From Candidatus Bathyarchaeota archaeon (GTDB taxonomy: Archaea > Thermoproteota > Bathyarchaeia > Bathyarchaeales > SOJC01), in NCBI GenBank assembly GCA_020341775.1, contig CP070835.1:1398462-1447411 (forward strand): DNA of 48,950 bases. The letters are read 5' to 3'. The position numbers were made by a program, and so were the translations under genes. Of this stretch, positions 4,548-12,088 are shown one piece after another. Position 1 is the stretch's first letter, and the number at the start of each line of letters is the position of its first letter. The notes under the pieces are model-generated. The model was not told the DNA's origin, searched no databases, and was given only the letters and a program-made list of their open reading frames with translations.

Positions 4548-4584
4548 ACCACAACAATCTCCCTTTCAGCAAATGCAATTGCAA

Positions 4585-4606
4585 GCCCCTGATTTCTACT
4601 GGAAAA
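4585..4606 (-). repeat. ORB-like element 1
   Basis: The minus strand reads TTTTCCAGTAGAAA then TCA then GGGGC: an ORB dyad with its G-run. It is about 40-60 nt upstream of the cdc6 ATG and so may also act as an autoregulatory site. Confidence 0.65.
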
Positions 4607-4722
4607 GATAAGCACTTTCCTACAAAAAATTAGAGATTTACTATAGAACTAGAAAAGAAAGCACACGGGGGATAACGGCTTTACAGTTATGTGAGAAAAT
4701 AGAAGAGAGATGATTTACTCCC

Positions 4723-4744
4723 ACCCCTGCATTTCTAGTAGAAA
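4723..4744 (-). repeat. ORB-like element 2
   Basis: The minus strand reads TTTCTACT then AGAAATGCAGGGGT. The final 14 bases align without gaps to those of elements 3 and 5. It bounds the AT-rich core on the left and faces outwards. Confidence 0.7.
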
Positions 4745-4930
4745 CTCTAAATAAAAGAAGTTATGTAACATTCATTTCTTTTTAAAAGAAATACACTCCA
4801 AAAGGTTTAGCCAATATTTCAGATTTAATTTTAGTGCTAAAATAATTTAGAGGAATTTTACCTTTTTTAAGAATCTGGTTCTTAATAGTCACTAATCCCA
4901 GGTTGTTCTATTTGTTTTTTAAGTTTTAAA
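4745..4930. other. Candidate duplex unwinding element
   Basis: Extremely AT-rich segment flanked by outward-facing ORB-like elements. It holds two perfect inverted repeats: a 19-nt palindrome at 4774-4792 (ATTTCTTTT, T, AAAAGAAAT) and TTAAGAA/TTCTTAA arms with a 5-nt loop at 4867-4885. This matches the known arrangement of ORB pairs around an AT-rich melting region, but function is inferred. Confidence 0.55.
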
Positions 4931-4952
4931 GTTGCAGTGGAAATGAAGGGGT
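4931..4952 (+). repeat. ORB-like element 3
   Basis: The plus strand reads GTTGCAGT then GGAAATGAAGGGGT, the strongest match on this strand. It is the only plus-strand copy and bounds the AT-rich core on the right. Confidence 0.75.
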
Positions 4953-5050
4953 TGGAGTATATCACCTATTCTAACAGGTTGCGAAGTATTGGTGAAGTTG
5001 ATCTTAAAGCGGAAATTTCTGGTACCCTTTTAAGTTTCTTTTTGCATTTT

Positions 5051-5070
5051 CAACCCCTTTTTCTGTGAAT
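5051..5070 (-). repeat. ORB-like element 4 (weaker)
   Basis: The minus strand reads ATTCACAG then AAAAAGGGGTTG. The dyad half and the GGGGTTG tail shared with element 3 are present, but the spacer is two bases shorter than in elements 2, 3 and 5. Confidence 0.5.
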
Positions 5071-5075
5071 AAGAG

Positions 5076-5097
5076 ACCCCTAGGTTTCCTTTGGAAA
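5076..5097 (-). repeat. ORB-like element 5
   Basis: The minus strand reads TTTCCAAA then GGAAACCTAGGGGT, a complete dyad plus G-run very close to the classical ORB. It lies 5 nt from element 4, so the two form a tandem pair. Confidence 0.75.
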
Positions 5098-5307
5098 AAG
5101 AGGATAAGCCTTAGGATTTTTCGCTCCCCTAAATTAAAGAGGTTGTGAAGGCTGTGAAATCAAAATATCTGCAGAAAAGGCTTCTTCTGTTTCTAGAGTG
5201 TAATTCTATCTGCAACCTTTTTCTTGTTTTGGTCGTAAAAGCTATAACGTGTGAGGTAAAATGTTTCAAAGCTTAGGTTATGGTGTTAGTAGTTGCCAGG
5301 AAAGAGA

Positions 5308-5715
5308 ATGCGGATAGAAGTTTCTGACGGAGATGGCAATCGATACACTATAACCTTTGAAGGCGAAGTGACCCGAGAGAAGGCCTTGCGTTTACTCGAC
5401 ATTGTTGAATTGCTTGGTTACACAGGCGATTCAAAGGGTTTAGAAGAGAACATCGCAGGGCTCTCAAAATTTTCCAAGACTAAAATTATTGTTGAGAAAC
5501 ATTTTTCTCTCAAGTGGTTTTCTTCTAGAGAGGTTCTTAAAATGTATGAACAAGAGTTTAATGAGCCAACTTCCATCAGCACGATATGTACATACTTATC
5601 AAGGCTAGTGAATCGTGGCTTCCTTGTAAAGCAAGGGAAACCTCACAATTTAAAGTACAGAAGAATCACAGAACTACCGAGACAAAATGAGTTCCAGTTT
5701 ATTAGAGATACATGA
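5308..5715 (+). CDS. Winged-helix DNA-binding protein, first gene of the NurA-HerA operon
   Basis: A 135-residue protein that I do not recognise as a named family. The N-terminus (MRIEVSDGDGNRYTITFEGE) looks like a small beta-hairpin. Residues about 55-120 look like a winged helix, with a recognition-type helix around SISTICTYLSRLVNRG and a wing at QGKPHNLKYRRIT. I chose the ATG at 5308, preceded by AGGAAAG, over an in-frame TTG at 5293. It follows the putative origin and precedes nurA and herA in the same direction, so it may regulate that operon or bind DNA as part of its machinery. Confidence 0.7.
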   Translation: MRIEVSDGDGNRYTITFEGEVTREKALRLLDIVELLGYTGDSKGLEENIAGLSKFSKTKIIVEKHFSLKWFSSREVLKMYEQEFNEPTSISTICTYLSRLVNRGFLVKQGKPHNLKYRRITELPRQNEFQFIRDT

Positions 5716-6777: not shown

Positions 6778-8308
6778 TCATTTAGGATCCATTTGTGATG
6801 TAAAAGGGGACAAAATATCCTTTTTCATGAAGAAGGATGCAAACCTCTCCTTTGGGCAGATTGTTCGGGTCGACTCTGGAGGGCGCAGTTTCTATGCACG
6901 TGTGGTGAATGCACAGAGCAAATCTACGCTAGAGACTGGCGAGCAACTTCGCGAAGCAGAAGGGAAAGAAACCTTCGGGCCTTACTCTTGTTACAAGAAT
7001 ATTGAGGCTATTCTTTTTCTTGAAAAGAGAGCGGGAAAAGTCCGCTCCCCCACCTTCAACCCCAATTACATGGATAAAGTATTCCAAACAACGCAGGAAG
7101 ACTCCGCGGTGTTAAAGCTGGGCGGAGAGCTGCAAATTGGCAACTTCCGCTCCGGTGAGTCGATGCTTGGCAATGTTGGGATTGATAGCGACGCAATCCC
7201 GCGGATGTTAGGGATGTTTGGGATGACCGGCTCAGGAAAGACGAACACTGAACTGATAGTCAATGCTCAACTTATCGACCACAGCCCCCAAACTGCGGGG
7301 CTAATTTTTGATTTTGCGGGCCAATTGCTAGAGGGAAAGGAGTTGTTCAACGTCGGCTTGCGCGATCACCCGCTTTTCCATAGCAAAGTGTGTTTTTACA
7401 GCACAAAGGCCGGGAAAATGCGCGTGGGTCTTCGGACGCTTCGCCCTGAGAAACTGCGTAATCTCTTTTCTGACATCACTGATCCCCAATATCGCCTCGC
7501 TCAAAAAATATATGGGCAGCTTGGAGAAGAATGGATCGAAAAAGTCTGCGAAGTATGGGAACGCAATGGACCAGCAGGTGTCACTAAACTTGTGTCTGCA
7601 CACAAAGGAACAATCAACGCATTGATGCAGAAACTTACTCACCTAAACCCTGCGCTTTTCCCCCCCTCCCCATATAGCTTCATTGACGATGTTATCGAAA
7701 ACATAAGTCAAGGCGTTACCTGTCTTGTTGACATCTCCGGGATCACTGCTGAAGAGCAACATCGCATCGTGTGCTTAACGGCTTCAGGCGTTGCGAATCA
7801 TTACAAACGTGAGTGGGAAAGAAATTATGAAAGATGGCAGCTGCTGCCTACTTTGCTAATAACACTGGAAGAGGCTCACGAATTCCTTGACCCTGCGAGG
7901 GAGAGGACAATTTTTTCTTCTATTGCTCTAACGTATCGAAAATATCGGGTGGGACTGAACGCAGTGACACCTCGTCCTTCTCGAATTAACCCTGACGTAT
8001 TTGCGGAACTTTGGACCAAAGTCATAATGAAAACCGAGTTGAAAGCTGATAGAGACTATCTCACCAAGAACACACCTTACCTTGAATACAGTGACACTGA
8101 ATTGAAGATGCTTGACATAGGCGAAGCATTGTTGATCTCTGAGCCAAAAATACGATTTGCGGTTCCAGTAAAAGTGGTCCACTATGCAGATTACTTGAAA
8201 ACTCGGGAGAAAGTTGACTACCGTTTGCCGCCCTCTAAGACCTTCGAGGTGATGGGTAAAAAGTTGAAGCAGCTGCAAAATGCAGGCAAAAGTCTTGGAA
8301 ACAGCTAA
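6770..8308 (+). CDS. herA: HerA-family DNA translocase ATPase
   Basis: A hexameric bipolar DNA translocase that works with NurA in end resection. With the GTG start at 6770 (VSNHLGSICDVKG) the protein has 512 residues. It has an N-terminal HAS-type beta-barrel (about 1-90), Walker A GMTGSGKT (151-158), Walker B LLITLEEAHEFL and the C-terminal TPRPSRINPDV segment. The GTG overlaps the nurA stop by 8 nt, implying translational coupling; the longer open frame back to 6599 lies inside nurA and is rejected. Its stop overlaps the convergent next gene by 4 nt. Confidence 0.9.
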   Translation: MSNHLGSICDVKGDKISFFMKKDANLSFGQIVRVDSGGRSFYARVVNAQSKSTLETGEQLREAEGKETFGPYSCYKNIEAILFLEKRAGKVRSPTFNPNYMDKVFQTTQEDSAVLKLGGELQIGNFRSGESMLGNVGIDSDAIPRMLGMFGMTGSGKTNTELIVNAQLIDHSPQTAGLIFDFAGQLLEGKELFNVGLRDHPLFHSKVCFYSTKAGKMRVGLRTLRPEKLRNLFSDITDPQYRLAQKIYGQLGEEWIEKVCEVWERNGPAGVTKLVSAHKGTINALMQKLTHLNPALFPPSPYSFIDDVIENISQGVTCLVDISGITAEEQHRIVCLTASGVANHYKREWERNYERWQLLPTLLITLEEAHEFLDPARERTIFSSIALTYRKYRVGLNAVTPRPSRINPDVFAELWTKVIMKTELKADRDYLTKNTPYLEYSDTELKMLDIGEALLISEPKIRFAVPVKVVHYADYLKTREKVDYRLPPSKTFEVMGKKLKQLQNAGKSLGNS

Positions 8309-9006
8309 CTTTTATATCCTGCGCTCTTAAGAATTTTTCTCATCTCTTCTTTCAGACTGTACGTGAAAGGGATTTTGCTTGCACTGCGCTCTAGATAACC
8401 TCTTTCGTACAGTTTTTTCATCAGACGTGCAGTATGCTCTCGGCTGAGGTTTATTCGCTCCTTAATTTCTGGTCCGGTTCTTCCGTTTTCGCCTGTTAGC
8501 AATTCGAGAACTTTAAGTTCAGTTTCAGTTAATGGTGCCAAGGCTTCTTCACGTCTAATTGGAATGGGGGACCGAATTCTAACCTCGGTTTCTCTTGGAG
8601 GGCGACGCTGTTTCTCAATTTTGGCGAGTTTCTGTAGCAGTGAGTTTCTTGATGATTCTGCTTCGTTAAACCTCTTTTCTAGCGATTCGATTCGGGGCAG
8701 CACTTCTTTTGGATCAAAAGGAAACACCAACTTTTCTGCAAGTGCTCGTACCTCTTTCTGCTGGTTGTTTAATCTTTCATTTAGGAGCTCATCACGGCCA
8801 GAAAGAGTGCTGATCTTAGTTGCAGAAGCGAGAAGGCGATCTTCCTGCTTCTGGAGCTGTTTATTGAAACTCACAATTATGTCGTCGATAACGCATTTGG
8901 CCTCTTCATACTCTTTACGTGACTCGCGGATACGCTTGCTATACAGAAATGCAGTAAACAGAGTGAATACCGACAAAATACACGCGAAAATCACGGTCTC
9001 GACCAT
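8305..9006 (-). CDS. Membrane-anchored coiled-coil protein with C-terminal winged helix
   Basis: 233 residues in three parts. One N-terminal membrane segment (about 3-21) is followed by a long charged helix/coiled coil (about 25-135). After a basic proline-rich linker (PPRETEVRIRSPIPIRREE) comes a MarR/ArsR-like winged helix (about 157-225, LTETELKVLELL...GPEIKERINLSREHTARLM). The predicted topology puts the DNA-binding domain in the cytoplasm tethered to the membrane. Function unknown: a membrane-tethered regulator or a chromosome-tethering factor is possible. Its upstream region carries eight TGTGA half-sites, a possible autoregulatory array. Confidence 0.75.
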   Translation of the reverse strand: MVETVIFACILSVFTLFTAFLYSKRIRESRKEYEEAKCVIDDIIVSFNKQLQKQEDRLLASATKISTLSGRDELLNERLNNQQKEVRALAEKLVFPFDPKEVLPRIESLEKRFNEAESSRNSLLQKLAKIEKQRRPPRETEVRIRSPIPIRREEALAPLTETELKVLELLTGENGRTGPEIKERINLSREHTARLMKKLYERGYLERSASKIPFTYSLKEEMRKILKSAGYKS

Positions 9007-9018
9007 TCCAATACCCGC

Positions 9019-9034
9019 TGTGACCTCTCTGTGA
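9019..9034 (+). promoter_or_regulatory. Paired TGTGA half-sites in the leader of the coiled-coil winged-helix gene
   Basis: Two direct TGTGA copies start at 9019 and 9030, 11 nt apart. They lie 13-28 nt upstream of the ATG at 9006, inside the likely mRNA leader. Confidence 0.4.
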
Positions 9035-9055
9035 TCTCTCCCGACCTTTACGGCG

Positions 9056-9072
9056 TCACACTTGAAATCACA
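9056..9072 (-). promoter_or_regulatory. Paired TCACA half-sites near the predicted transcription start
   Basis: TCACA at 9056 and 9068, 12 nt apart. A TATA-like TTTATCTT on the minus strand near 9083-9090 would place the transcription start about here. Confidence 0.4.
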
Positions 9073-9107
9073 ATAAGATGAAGATAAACTTAAGGCTTAT
9101 GGTTATG

Positions 9108-9133
9108 TGTGAAATGTGACATCACAAATCACA
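9108..9133. promoter_or_regulatory. Four-half-site palindromic operator-like element
   Basis: TGTGA at 9108 and 9115 are followed by TCACA at 9122 and 9129. The four half-sites form a nested palindrome with a strict 7-nt step, centred on TGTGACATCACA. It lies about 100-130 nt upstream of the coiled-coil winged-helix gene. The symmetry suggests cooperative binding of two dimers, but the binding protein is unknown. Confidence 0.6.
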
Positions 9134-9249
9134 AAGGGGAAACAACTATGTTTCCTCTGAAGACGTCGTAAACGGCTCGAAAAGGAATCTTTTGCCACAA
9201 AAAGGCGTAATTTGGGCGCCTCTCTAGAGGCATCAGTGTGCTGCTAAAA

Positions 9250-9268
9250 TGTGACCTGTGATGTCACG
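9250..9268. promoter_or_regulatory. Three-half-site copy of the operator-like element
   Basis: TGTGA at 9250 and 9257 and TCACG at 9264, again on a 7-nt step. The palindrome overlaps the TGA stop (9264-9266) of the leftward unknown gene. Confidence 0.5.
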
Positions 9269-9794
9269 TATCGGATGTAATCCATGGATTCGAGAGGTCG
9301 TCAATCTGGGCTTCAAGCTCTTCGCGTAACACACGCAGTGCTTGAAACTGCTCTTTTGCTCCTTCTTTGTTGACCAAAAGATCTCTGTATGCTTCAGTGT
9401 ATGCCTTTAATTTGCTGGCGATTTCAATGTAGGTTATAAGATTTGCCTCTTCGAAGATGCCGAAATATCCCAAAAGAATGACTGTATATATTGATTGTAT
9501 GGTGTTCTTCTTCGCTTGTCTAAGCGTTCTGTTGAAAGCGCCTCGGCTTATTCTGGCCTTTGTTCGCCTTAATTTGGCTTTTTCCTCGTACTTTAGCCTT
9601 TTTGAGGCTAAATTCTCGGATAAAACGTCTATCAGTAGTGTTTCCAGCTGTATTTTTGTCAAATTGCTATTTCTTGCGAGTATTTTAACAATTGGGTCTT
9701 CCATTGAGTGTTTTATCCAATTTTGCACGTTTTTTCTGAAACTCAAGGTTTGCACCAATAGATCATGTGAATAGGATACAGTTTTGTATACCAA
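9264..9794 (-). CDS. Unknown helical protein, possibly DNA-binding
   Basis: 176 residues, predicted almost wholly helical, not recognised. Residues about 38-110 contain NSNLTKIQLETLLIDVL and ISRGAFNRTLRQAKKN, which resemble helix-turn-helix segments in a basic, Arg/Lys-rich stretch. A more hydrophobic helix follows (TIQSIYTVILLGYFG) and then an acidic helical tail. A shorter start at the ATG for MEDPIVKIL (9704) is possible. Codon use and the even composition support a real gene. Its position between two TGTGA clusters hints at shared control with the neighbour. Confidence 0.65.
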   Translation of the reverse strand: MVYKTVSYSHDLLVQTLSFRKNVQNWIKHSMEDPIVKILARNSNLTKIQLETLLIDVLSENLASKRLKYEEKAKLRRTKARISRGAFNRTLRQAKKNTIQSIYTVILLGYFGIFEEANLITYIEIASKLKAYTEAYRDLLVNKEGAKEQFQALRVLREELEAQIDDLSNPWITSDT

Positions 9795-10111
9795 CTAACT
9801 GTGGTCTATTATTTAAAACTGATTGGCTCTTAAAATGTTGGCAAAAGTAAACGTTTTCACCTTCGGAAAGAATGAATAGAGATGCGAATAGCCTTATCTG
9901 GTAGACGTGAGAGTGAACCAATTGAATTCCTCAGTTAATCATTGATTCCACATACGCTGCAAAATCGTGTGTAGATATGCGCTCAGGATCTAATGCTTAG
10001 CCATAGCTCATCAGGTCTTTCAGAGTATCCTGTGAACTGGCAGCTATGCGTGGTCTGATGTTGCATCACACAAGCATCACAGACGTGATATACTGTGTGA
10101 TCTTTGTGACA
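9795..10111. other. 317-bp intergenic region without a visible gene
   Basis: No coding frame, tRNA or convincing C/D-box RNA was found. It contains the upstream region of the leftward unknown gene and, at its right end, a cluster of TGTGA/TCACA half-sites. Confidence 0.6.
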
Positions 10112-10116
10112 TCACA
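10066..10116. promoter_or_regulatory. Cluster of TGTGA/TCACA half-sites downstream of the nitrilase gene
   Basis: TCACA at 10066 and 10077, CGTGA at 10084, TGTGA at 10096 and 10105, and TCACA at 10112; the last two form TGTGACATCACA. An isolated TGTGA also lies at 10031. The palindrome overlaps the stop codon of the nitrilase gene, as another copy overlaps the stop at 9264. Confidence 0.5.
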
Positions 10117-11974: not shown

Positions 11975-12088
11975 GCCGGGGTGGCAGAGTGGTATTGCGC
12001 CGGCCTCGAGTTCCAACGTTACGCGCAACGGGTTAGATAGCCGGTGGGTCTTTGACCCTCAGGGGTTCAAATCCTCTCCCCGGCGCCA
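11975..12088 (+). tRNA. tRNA-Ser (anticodon CGA) with intron, CCA encoded
   Basis: Acceptor stem GCCGGGG pairs with CCCCGGC (12078-12084). The D stem is GCA/TGC, the anticodon stem CCGGC (12000-12004) pairs with GCCGG (12040-12044), and the anticodon CGA is at 12007-12009. A long class II variable arm (GGGTC-TTT-GACCC) and a T arm AGGGG/CCTCT with loop TTCAAAT follow. Discriminator G73 and the long variable arm identify a serine tRNA. CCA is encoded at 12086-12088. A 28-nt intron interrupts the anticodon loop after position 37. Confidence 0.92.
12011..12038 (+). other. tRNA-Ser intron (position 37/38)
   Basis: A 28-nt insert between G37 and A38. A relaxed bulge-helix-bulge can be drawn: 5' bulge AG^T, central helix CTCG with TTAG (one mismatch), 3' bulge AT^A, and an intron stem TCC/GGG. 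These cuts give exactly this interval. Confidence 0.75.

Follow-up and report, generated by a model that had tools for sequence, protein, structure and literature searches.

What binds the clustered, regularly stepped TGTGA/TCACA half-sites that lie near a probable replication origin of a Candidatus Bathyarchaeota archaeon, and what might they be for? Our window, meaning the whole stretch of DNA that was analysed, comprises 48,950 bases (1,398,462-1,447,411) within a single-contig 1.92 Mb genome. Around the half-sites, its genes run in the order PolD small subunit, Orc1/Cdc6, a gap of 745 bp that holds ORB-like boxes, p5293, NurA, HerA and a winged-helix (wHTH) gene, and beyond the latter (8305-9006, minus strand) lie a small helical gene, a nitrilase and an NAD synthase. 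The linkage of the PolD small subunit and cdc6 was previously known (PMC2643942), and the order from the PolD small subunit to NAD synthase is kept through much of the class. We computed directly the array, its conservation, its exclusivity to the locus, its co-occurrence with the wHTH gene and the sites away from the promoter. Our main reading, which we hold at a probability of about 0.5, is that the wHTH protein would bind the array, and that the bound array would both autoregulate the wHTH gene and tether or partition origin-proximal DNA.

A phased array of half-sites near the probable origin

The features of the locus, by position in the window, are the following.

4548..5292, no strand: probable oriC, with ORB-like boxes at about 4585, 4724, 4932 and 5077; context, outside the array
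5293..5715, plus strand: p5293, a small wHTH protein with a weak CopY/MecI-like match, between oriC and NurA/HerA; disfavoured as binder
8305..9006, minus strand: gene of the likely binder, with an N-terminal hydrophobic helix, a coiled coil, a MarR/MecI-like winged helix and an invariant REH motif
9019..9072, no strand: Site group C, half-sites at 9068, 9056 (toward the wHTH gene), 9030 and 9019, spaced by about 11-12 nt
9086..9102, minus strand: conserved CCATAAnCTTTAAGTTT block of near-invariant alignment columns, the probable TATA/BRE element of the wHTH gene (a putative function)
9108..9133, no strand: Site B, a nested palindrome of four half-sites with a 7-nt step, upstream of the wHTH promoter
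9250..9268, no strand: Site A, three half-sites at 7-nt steps over the small-gene stop codon; CGTGACATCACAGGTCACA on the minus strand
9264..9746, minus strand: small all-helical gene, conserved, adjoining the array
10031..10116, no strand: Cluster D, six half-sites with the core TGTGA-N2-TCACA-N4-TCACA on the minus strand, over the nitrilase stop codon

The initial annotation, made from the letters of this stretch, had described two clusters with about 18 half-sites. Both clusters are real, and all the coordinates given for them were confirmed. Ten exact TGTGA/TCACA half-sites fall within 9019-9261 (at 9019, 9030, 9056, 9068, 9108, 9115, 9122, 9129, 9250 and 9257) and six within 10031-10116 (at 10031, 10066, 10077, 10096, 10105 and 10112), so that 16 are exact, and a total of about 18 is reached by admitting near matches, TCACG at 9264 among them. 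Site B reads TGTGA-AA-TGTGA-CA-TCACA-AA-TCACA with steps of exactly 7 nt, as expected of the four-part palindrome that had been claimed. Site A, described as a three-half-site copy, does have the 7-nt step (TGTGA-CC-TGTGA-TG-TCACG), although its third half-site is imperfect. The two stop codons said to be overlapped, at 9264-9266 and 10112-10114, indeed fall inside sites. Site group C has the TATA-like block on one side and the wHTH start on the other, and the 10/11-nt spacing of its distal pair recurs in relatives.

Could such a cluster arise by chance or from base composition? The half-sites are just 5 nt long, and the background, one half-site per ~390 bp, is higher than the once per 500 bp previously assumed. 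Nevertheless, no other 250-bp stretch of the window has more than 4 half-sites, versus 10 in 9019-9261, and the five pairs with a 7-nt step that the window contains all belong to the array, whereas no other 5-mer pair has more than three. Simulated 400 times with a second-order Markov model, the whole window never exceeded 7 half-sites per 250 bp, 2 step-7 pairs or a chain of 2; the observed values are 10 per 250 bp, 5 pairs and a chain of 4. The array is moreover conserved across families, and we consider the chance reading refuted, with a probability close to nil.

The array is conserved across Bathyarchaeia and exclusive to one locus

Relatives were fetched with a wHTH profile, the named ones being mostly Candidatus Bathyarchaeota MAGs. 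Over 78 named bathyarchaeal loci, whose counts are not independent because the loci are related, the half-site density between the small gene and the wHTH gene is 25.1/kb versus 2.04/kb elsewhere, and 264 pairs lie 7 nt apart, while no other spacing up to 30 accounts for more than 66. The second commonest spacing is 14 nt (66 pairs), twice 7, and direct spacings of 10 and 11 nt rank next among the short ones. In family-level relatives, the region between the two genes contains three conserved blocks, A, B and C, of which block A appears as GTGAYRTCACANNTCACA at the small-gene stop in most relatives and block B as TGTGANNTGTGAYGTCACA upstream of the TATA-like block. The arrangement of Cluster D at the nitrilase stop is also found in four other relatives of family f1 (L040, L042, L043 and L045). 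An aminotransferase gene is convergent with the nitrilase in L040 and L043, the two of these with genes listed, and has been lost from the window.

The initial annotation had named two outcomes that would speak against its finding, a motif spread over the genome and an array missing from relatives that keep the flanking genes. We observed neither: the array is kept together with its flanking genes, and the motif is not genome-wide. Pattern searches of whole genomes recovered the exact 12-mer TGTGAYRTCACA at 63 sites in 46 of 61 genomes, as opposed to 6 for a reversed control pattern. Every one of the 63 falls no further than about 2 kb from the small gene (positions compared by eye with the small-gene coordinates). 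With one mismatch allowed, GTGAYGTCACANNTCACA occurs in 132 of 201 genomes, one to four times in each, almost always at the locus. The window's own genome carries TGTGANNTCACA at three places, two of them at the array. This exclusivity, the class-wide conservation and the neighbouring replication origin had all been missed in the initial annotation.

The probable origin (4548-5292) is a separate element about 4 kb from the array. Its ORBs are conserved in nearly every relative whose locus includes cdc6, and about three boxes, similarly arranged, recur in most of them. As with parS, specific sites are concentrated near an origin, the locus-exclusive palindrome lying ~4 kb from the ORBs, though not in every lineage. 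Since the array is present in the f17, f20 and f14 loci, while cdc6 and the ORBs are absent from the fetched locus, closeness to oriC appears to be usual and not obligatory.

Several side observations concern the neighbouring genes. The small gene probably starts with TTG at 9744-9746, judging from comparison with relatives (L040); it is conserved through the class and adjoins the array wherever the array occurs. A Foldseek search with its product returned no significant PDB structural match. Between the small gene and the nitrilase (9747-10111), relatives have the convergent aminotransferase gene, which is absent from the window's genome and some others. The second small winged-helix protein, p5293, is kept between oriC and the array across the phylum, including several genomes that lack the wHTH gene.

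Sites co-occur with the gene of a putative membrane-anchored winged-helix protein

The winged helix of the 8305-9006 product had been put forward as the binder to test, a choice that the co-occurrence of gene and sites backs. We split 27 class-level genomes that have the small gene by the presence of the wHTH gene, setting aside G167, whose contig ends there. GTGAYRTCAC was found within the 3.4-kb locus in all 16 genomes with the wHTH gene versus 1 of 10 without it (Fisher p = 3e-6, with related genomes treated as independent). In the lone exception, G192, a run of N stands in the locus beside an HTH-CBS gene, where its f16 relative G196 has the wHTH gene; we rejected it as a counter-example, the run falling where that gene would be expected. 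On a concatenated tree, the wHTH-less families occupy about three places (f10/f18/f22/f23, f19 and f21), with the wHTH-bearing f24 nested among the first group at moderate support; this amounts to about three losses.

The site-less genomes that were examined keep the small gene and cdc6, and most also keep p5293 and PolD. Because genomes with the small gene and cdc6 and without the wHTH gene have no sites, the wHTH protein is the likely binder, and we consider it quite probable, from sequence comparison, that the array is its target. The co-occurrence is a correlation that points away from Cdc6, p5293 and the small protein, and the disappearance of the sites where the gene is missing may in part reflect deletion of the promoter region along with it. 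Binding by one of these three is unlikely in our estimation: each is a conserved neighbour, and the sites stay beside the small gene even when the wHTH gene is elsewhere, yet the wHTH-less genomes retain the small gene and cdc6, and mostly p5293, without the sites, which led us to reject the small protein. The ORBs of Orc1/Cdc6 were rejected as an explanation as well, being a different motif in a different gap; with the ORB consensus TTCCAGTGGAAAC..AAGGGG, no window ORB match fell within the array.

The protein itself shows a suggestive architecture. Hydropathy rises above 1.6 in one N-terminal hydrophobic segment in 37 of the 38 orthologues; L072, which does not show it, begins at a shortened start choice. 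Some other relatives are without the segment. The AlphaFold model comprises a long helix, a coiled coil and the wHTH domain (mean pLDDT 81.6), with an overall arrangement that is uncertain given a pTM of 0.34. The protein matches Pfam MarR (2.6e-6), its fold matches MarR-type winged-helix structures at E of about 2e-4 (Foldseek), and its profile matches MecI weakly. The recognition region, REHTARLMKKLYExGYLER, is near-invariant among the orthologues. From hydropathy and the predicted helix, we consider the protein probably membrane-anchored.

Sites persist away from the wHTH promoter

A hypF gene stands between the small gene and the wHTH gene in four genomes, namely G164 (f11), G182 (f17), G198 (f14) and G165 (f12). 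These loci retain a site at the small-gene stop, which there faces the 3' end of hypF. The hypF gene itself holds a second palindrome, some 193-195 codons before it ends. That palindrome sits in a poorly conserved, variable linker and is read in codon phase 1 (Asp-Ile-Thr) in f11, f14 and f17 and in phase 0 (Val-Ile-Ser) in f12; it was not found in the hypF of the wHTH-less f21 (G178). Given the shifted phases, the variable linker and this absence, the DNA, and not the protein, appears to be conserved there. The 500 bp upstream of the wHTH gene in G164 and G182, where the gene is 2.5-3 kb away, contained no array. At loci L071, L075, L256 and L257, a GTGAYRTCAC palindrome is conserved within the hypF coding sequence in differing codon phases, and the hypF of a wHTH-less genome (L261) is without it.

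These sites bear on a purely autoregulatory operator, in which the wHTH protein would act on its own promoter only and distant sites would help through DNA looping. Conserved sites flank the TATA-like block on both sides, the densest conserved part straddles the wHTH promoter, exclusivity to one locus suits a regulator with a single target, and the domain is MarR/MecI-like. Against this stand the sites kept at the small-gene 3' end and in hypF with the wHTH gene 2.5-3 kb off, the position of Cluster D between convergent genes in relatives, and the hydrophobic N-terminal anchor. A pure promoter operator seems too narrow, since sites also lie between convergent genes and, in shifted phase, inside hypF; we give this reading appreciable weight while leaning against it. 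Even as a mere autoregulatory operator, the array would be an unusually conserved and locus-exclusive one.

In our main reading, the basic site would be the 12-bp palindrome with its two half-sites 7 nt apart, and extra half-sites at 7-nt steps would bring several protein subunits side by side. The wHTH protein would bind this array, which spans the small-gene end and the wHTH promoter and 5' leader. As the array covers that promoter and leader, the protein very probably autoregulates, a role in which we are moderately confident. Its further role might be to keep DNA near the origin at the membrane or to partition it there, by analogy with bacterial parS or the archaeal SegB/AspA centromere. 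The most likely further role is tethering or partition, because the sites occur in a single place, about 4 kb from oriC, and are retained between convergent genes and within a coding sequence, and because the protein has an N-terminal hydrophobic helix; we place an additional structural role of this kind somewhat short of even odds. The earlier proposal of an operator or nucleoprotein assembly site thus named the right class, and said too little about locus exclusivity, off-promoter sites and the putative membrane anchor.

Comparison with known DNA-binding and partition systems

By analogy, the array would work most like SegB/AspA sites or omega/parS heptads, and on the features tested it is a member of none of these systems. 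SegB of the Sulfolobales has palindromic sites upstream of its own gene cassette, proposed as a centromere analogue or regulator (PMC5120986). The likeness is that of an archaeal system with palindromic sites upstream of the candidate binder's own gene. SegB is a ribbon-helix-helix protein that recognises TCTAGASTCTAGA at dozens of chromosomal sites and works with the ParA-like SegA (PMC12284271), whereas here the candidate is a wHTH protein, the palindrome differs, there is one locus and no ParA gene was seen adjoining. No dedicated ParA-type ATPase was found among the genes seen in the locus, and AAA_31 matches occur elsewhere in the window's genome.

AspA of plasmid pNOB8 (AspA-ParBA) is an archaeal winged-helix centromere-binding protein of which, according to the same paper (PMC5120986), multiple copies assemble along DNA. 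It shares the fold and the domain of life with our candidate; however, it is plasmid-borne, in an operon with parB and parA, and has another site, and the account of it there describes no hydrophobic anchor.

The omega protein (ParB) of pSM19035, also ribbon-helix-helix, binds 7-10 contiguous WATCACW heptads over promoters, which serve as partition sites (PMC9499535). Its sites resemble ours in the 7-bp repeats, the ATCAC core and the promoter overlap, but the present array consists of short clusters of 3-4 half-sites plus sites spaced by 10-12 nt. A ribbon-helix-helix protein encoded elsewhere might bind the array in the manner of omega, as the 7-bp direct step and shared ATCAC core (PMC9499535) would allow. 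Yet inverted half-sites are 7 nt apart here, while abutting inverted WATCACW heptads would put them at 9 (from the consensus), and the presence of sites tracks the wHTH gene. We regard such a binder as very improbable.

Among regulators, the MarR/MecI-like comparison finds palindromic sites at the wHTH gene's own promoter, a putative operator by sequence. The BlaI/MecI/CopY group resembles our system in its short palindrome with a 2-nt centre and in the weak wHTH-profile match to MecI. Its members are repressors of other genes with a core that differs from the TGTGA array, and to our knowledge they have no coiled coil or anchor. For CopY-type repressors, the bound sequence is TACANNTGTA (PMC7253601). 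As this short palindrome likewise has two nucleotides at its centre, it is plausible, by analogy, that a winged helix could sit on TGTGA-N2-TCACA. The archaeal ORB elements of Orc1/Cdc6 share the gene neighbourhood with the array and differ from it in motif and intergenic gap.

CRP-type sites, of the form TGTGA-N6-TCACA, have the same half-site letters as the array. We rejected a CRP/FNR operator, having found 0 TGTGA-N6-TCACA pairs among the near sites of the 78 loci.

Ammonia-oxidising archaea and the wider phylum

Across the phylum, the wHTH profile picks up further relatives, which are shorter. In amoA-bearing genomes, a wHTH relative lies beside the small-gene homologue, p5293, cdc6 and the PolD small subunit, and TGTGA/GTGAT half-sites are enriched around it, for example 9-12 versus 1-2 per 660 bp, which is suggestive of a diverged array in these archaea. 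Their half-site spacing differs from the bathyarchaeal one. A step-9 pattern gave 52 matches in 28 genomes, only about 11 of them at the wHTH gene, and as the pattern is not locus-exclusive, the extension to ammonia oxidisers is tentative. As some ammonia oxidisers are in cultivation, the related neighbourhood would open the question to testing. In three Nitrosopumilaceae-like genomes, no convincing ParA/SegA gene was found, AAA_31 giving mainly one partial match in a frame of ~375 aa.

Chromosome positioning and segregation in most archaea outside the Sulfolobales have been called enigmatic (PMC12284271; see also PMC7617429). Should the wHTH protein bind the array, the two would form a concrete pair of protein and DNA site beside an origin. 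Literature searches on bathyarchaeal origins and Cdc6, and on membrane-anchored winged-helix proteins, yielded nothing on the array. That the locus represents an undescribed system of the Thermoproteota, an origin-proximal tether of DNA to the membrane or a centromere, conserved in Bathyarchaeia and shared, though diverged, by ammonia-oxidising archaea, is a speculative proposal that we judge rather doubtful.

Two minor observations complete the analysis. In three amoA-bearing loci (L280, L284 and L285), TGTGAT words are repeated where the small-gene coding sequence nears its 3' end and also over its stop codon, and apparently amount to repeated Val-Ile (GTG ATN) codons. An Rfam search for structured RNA returned only a tRNA match; at 11975-12085, a 111-nt Rfam tRNA match, with none by ARAGORN, is possibly an intron-containing tRNA gene.
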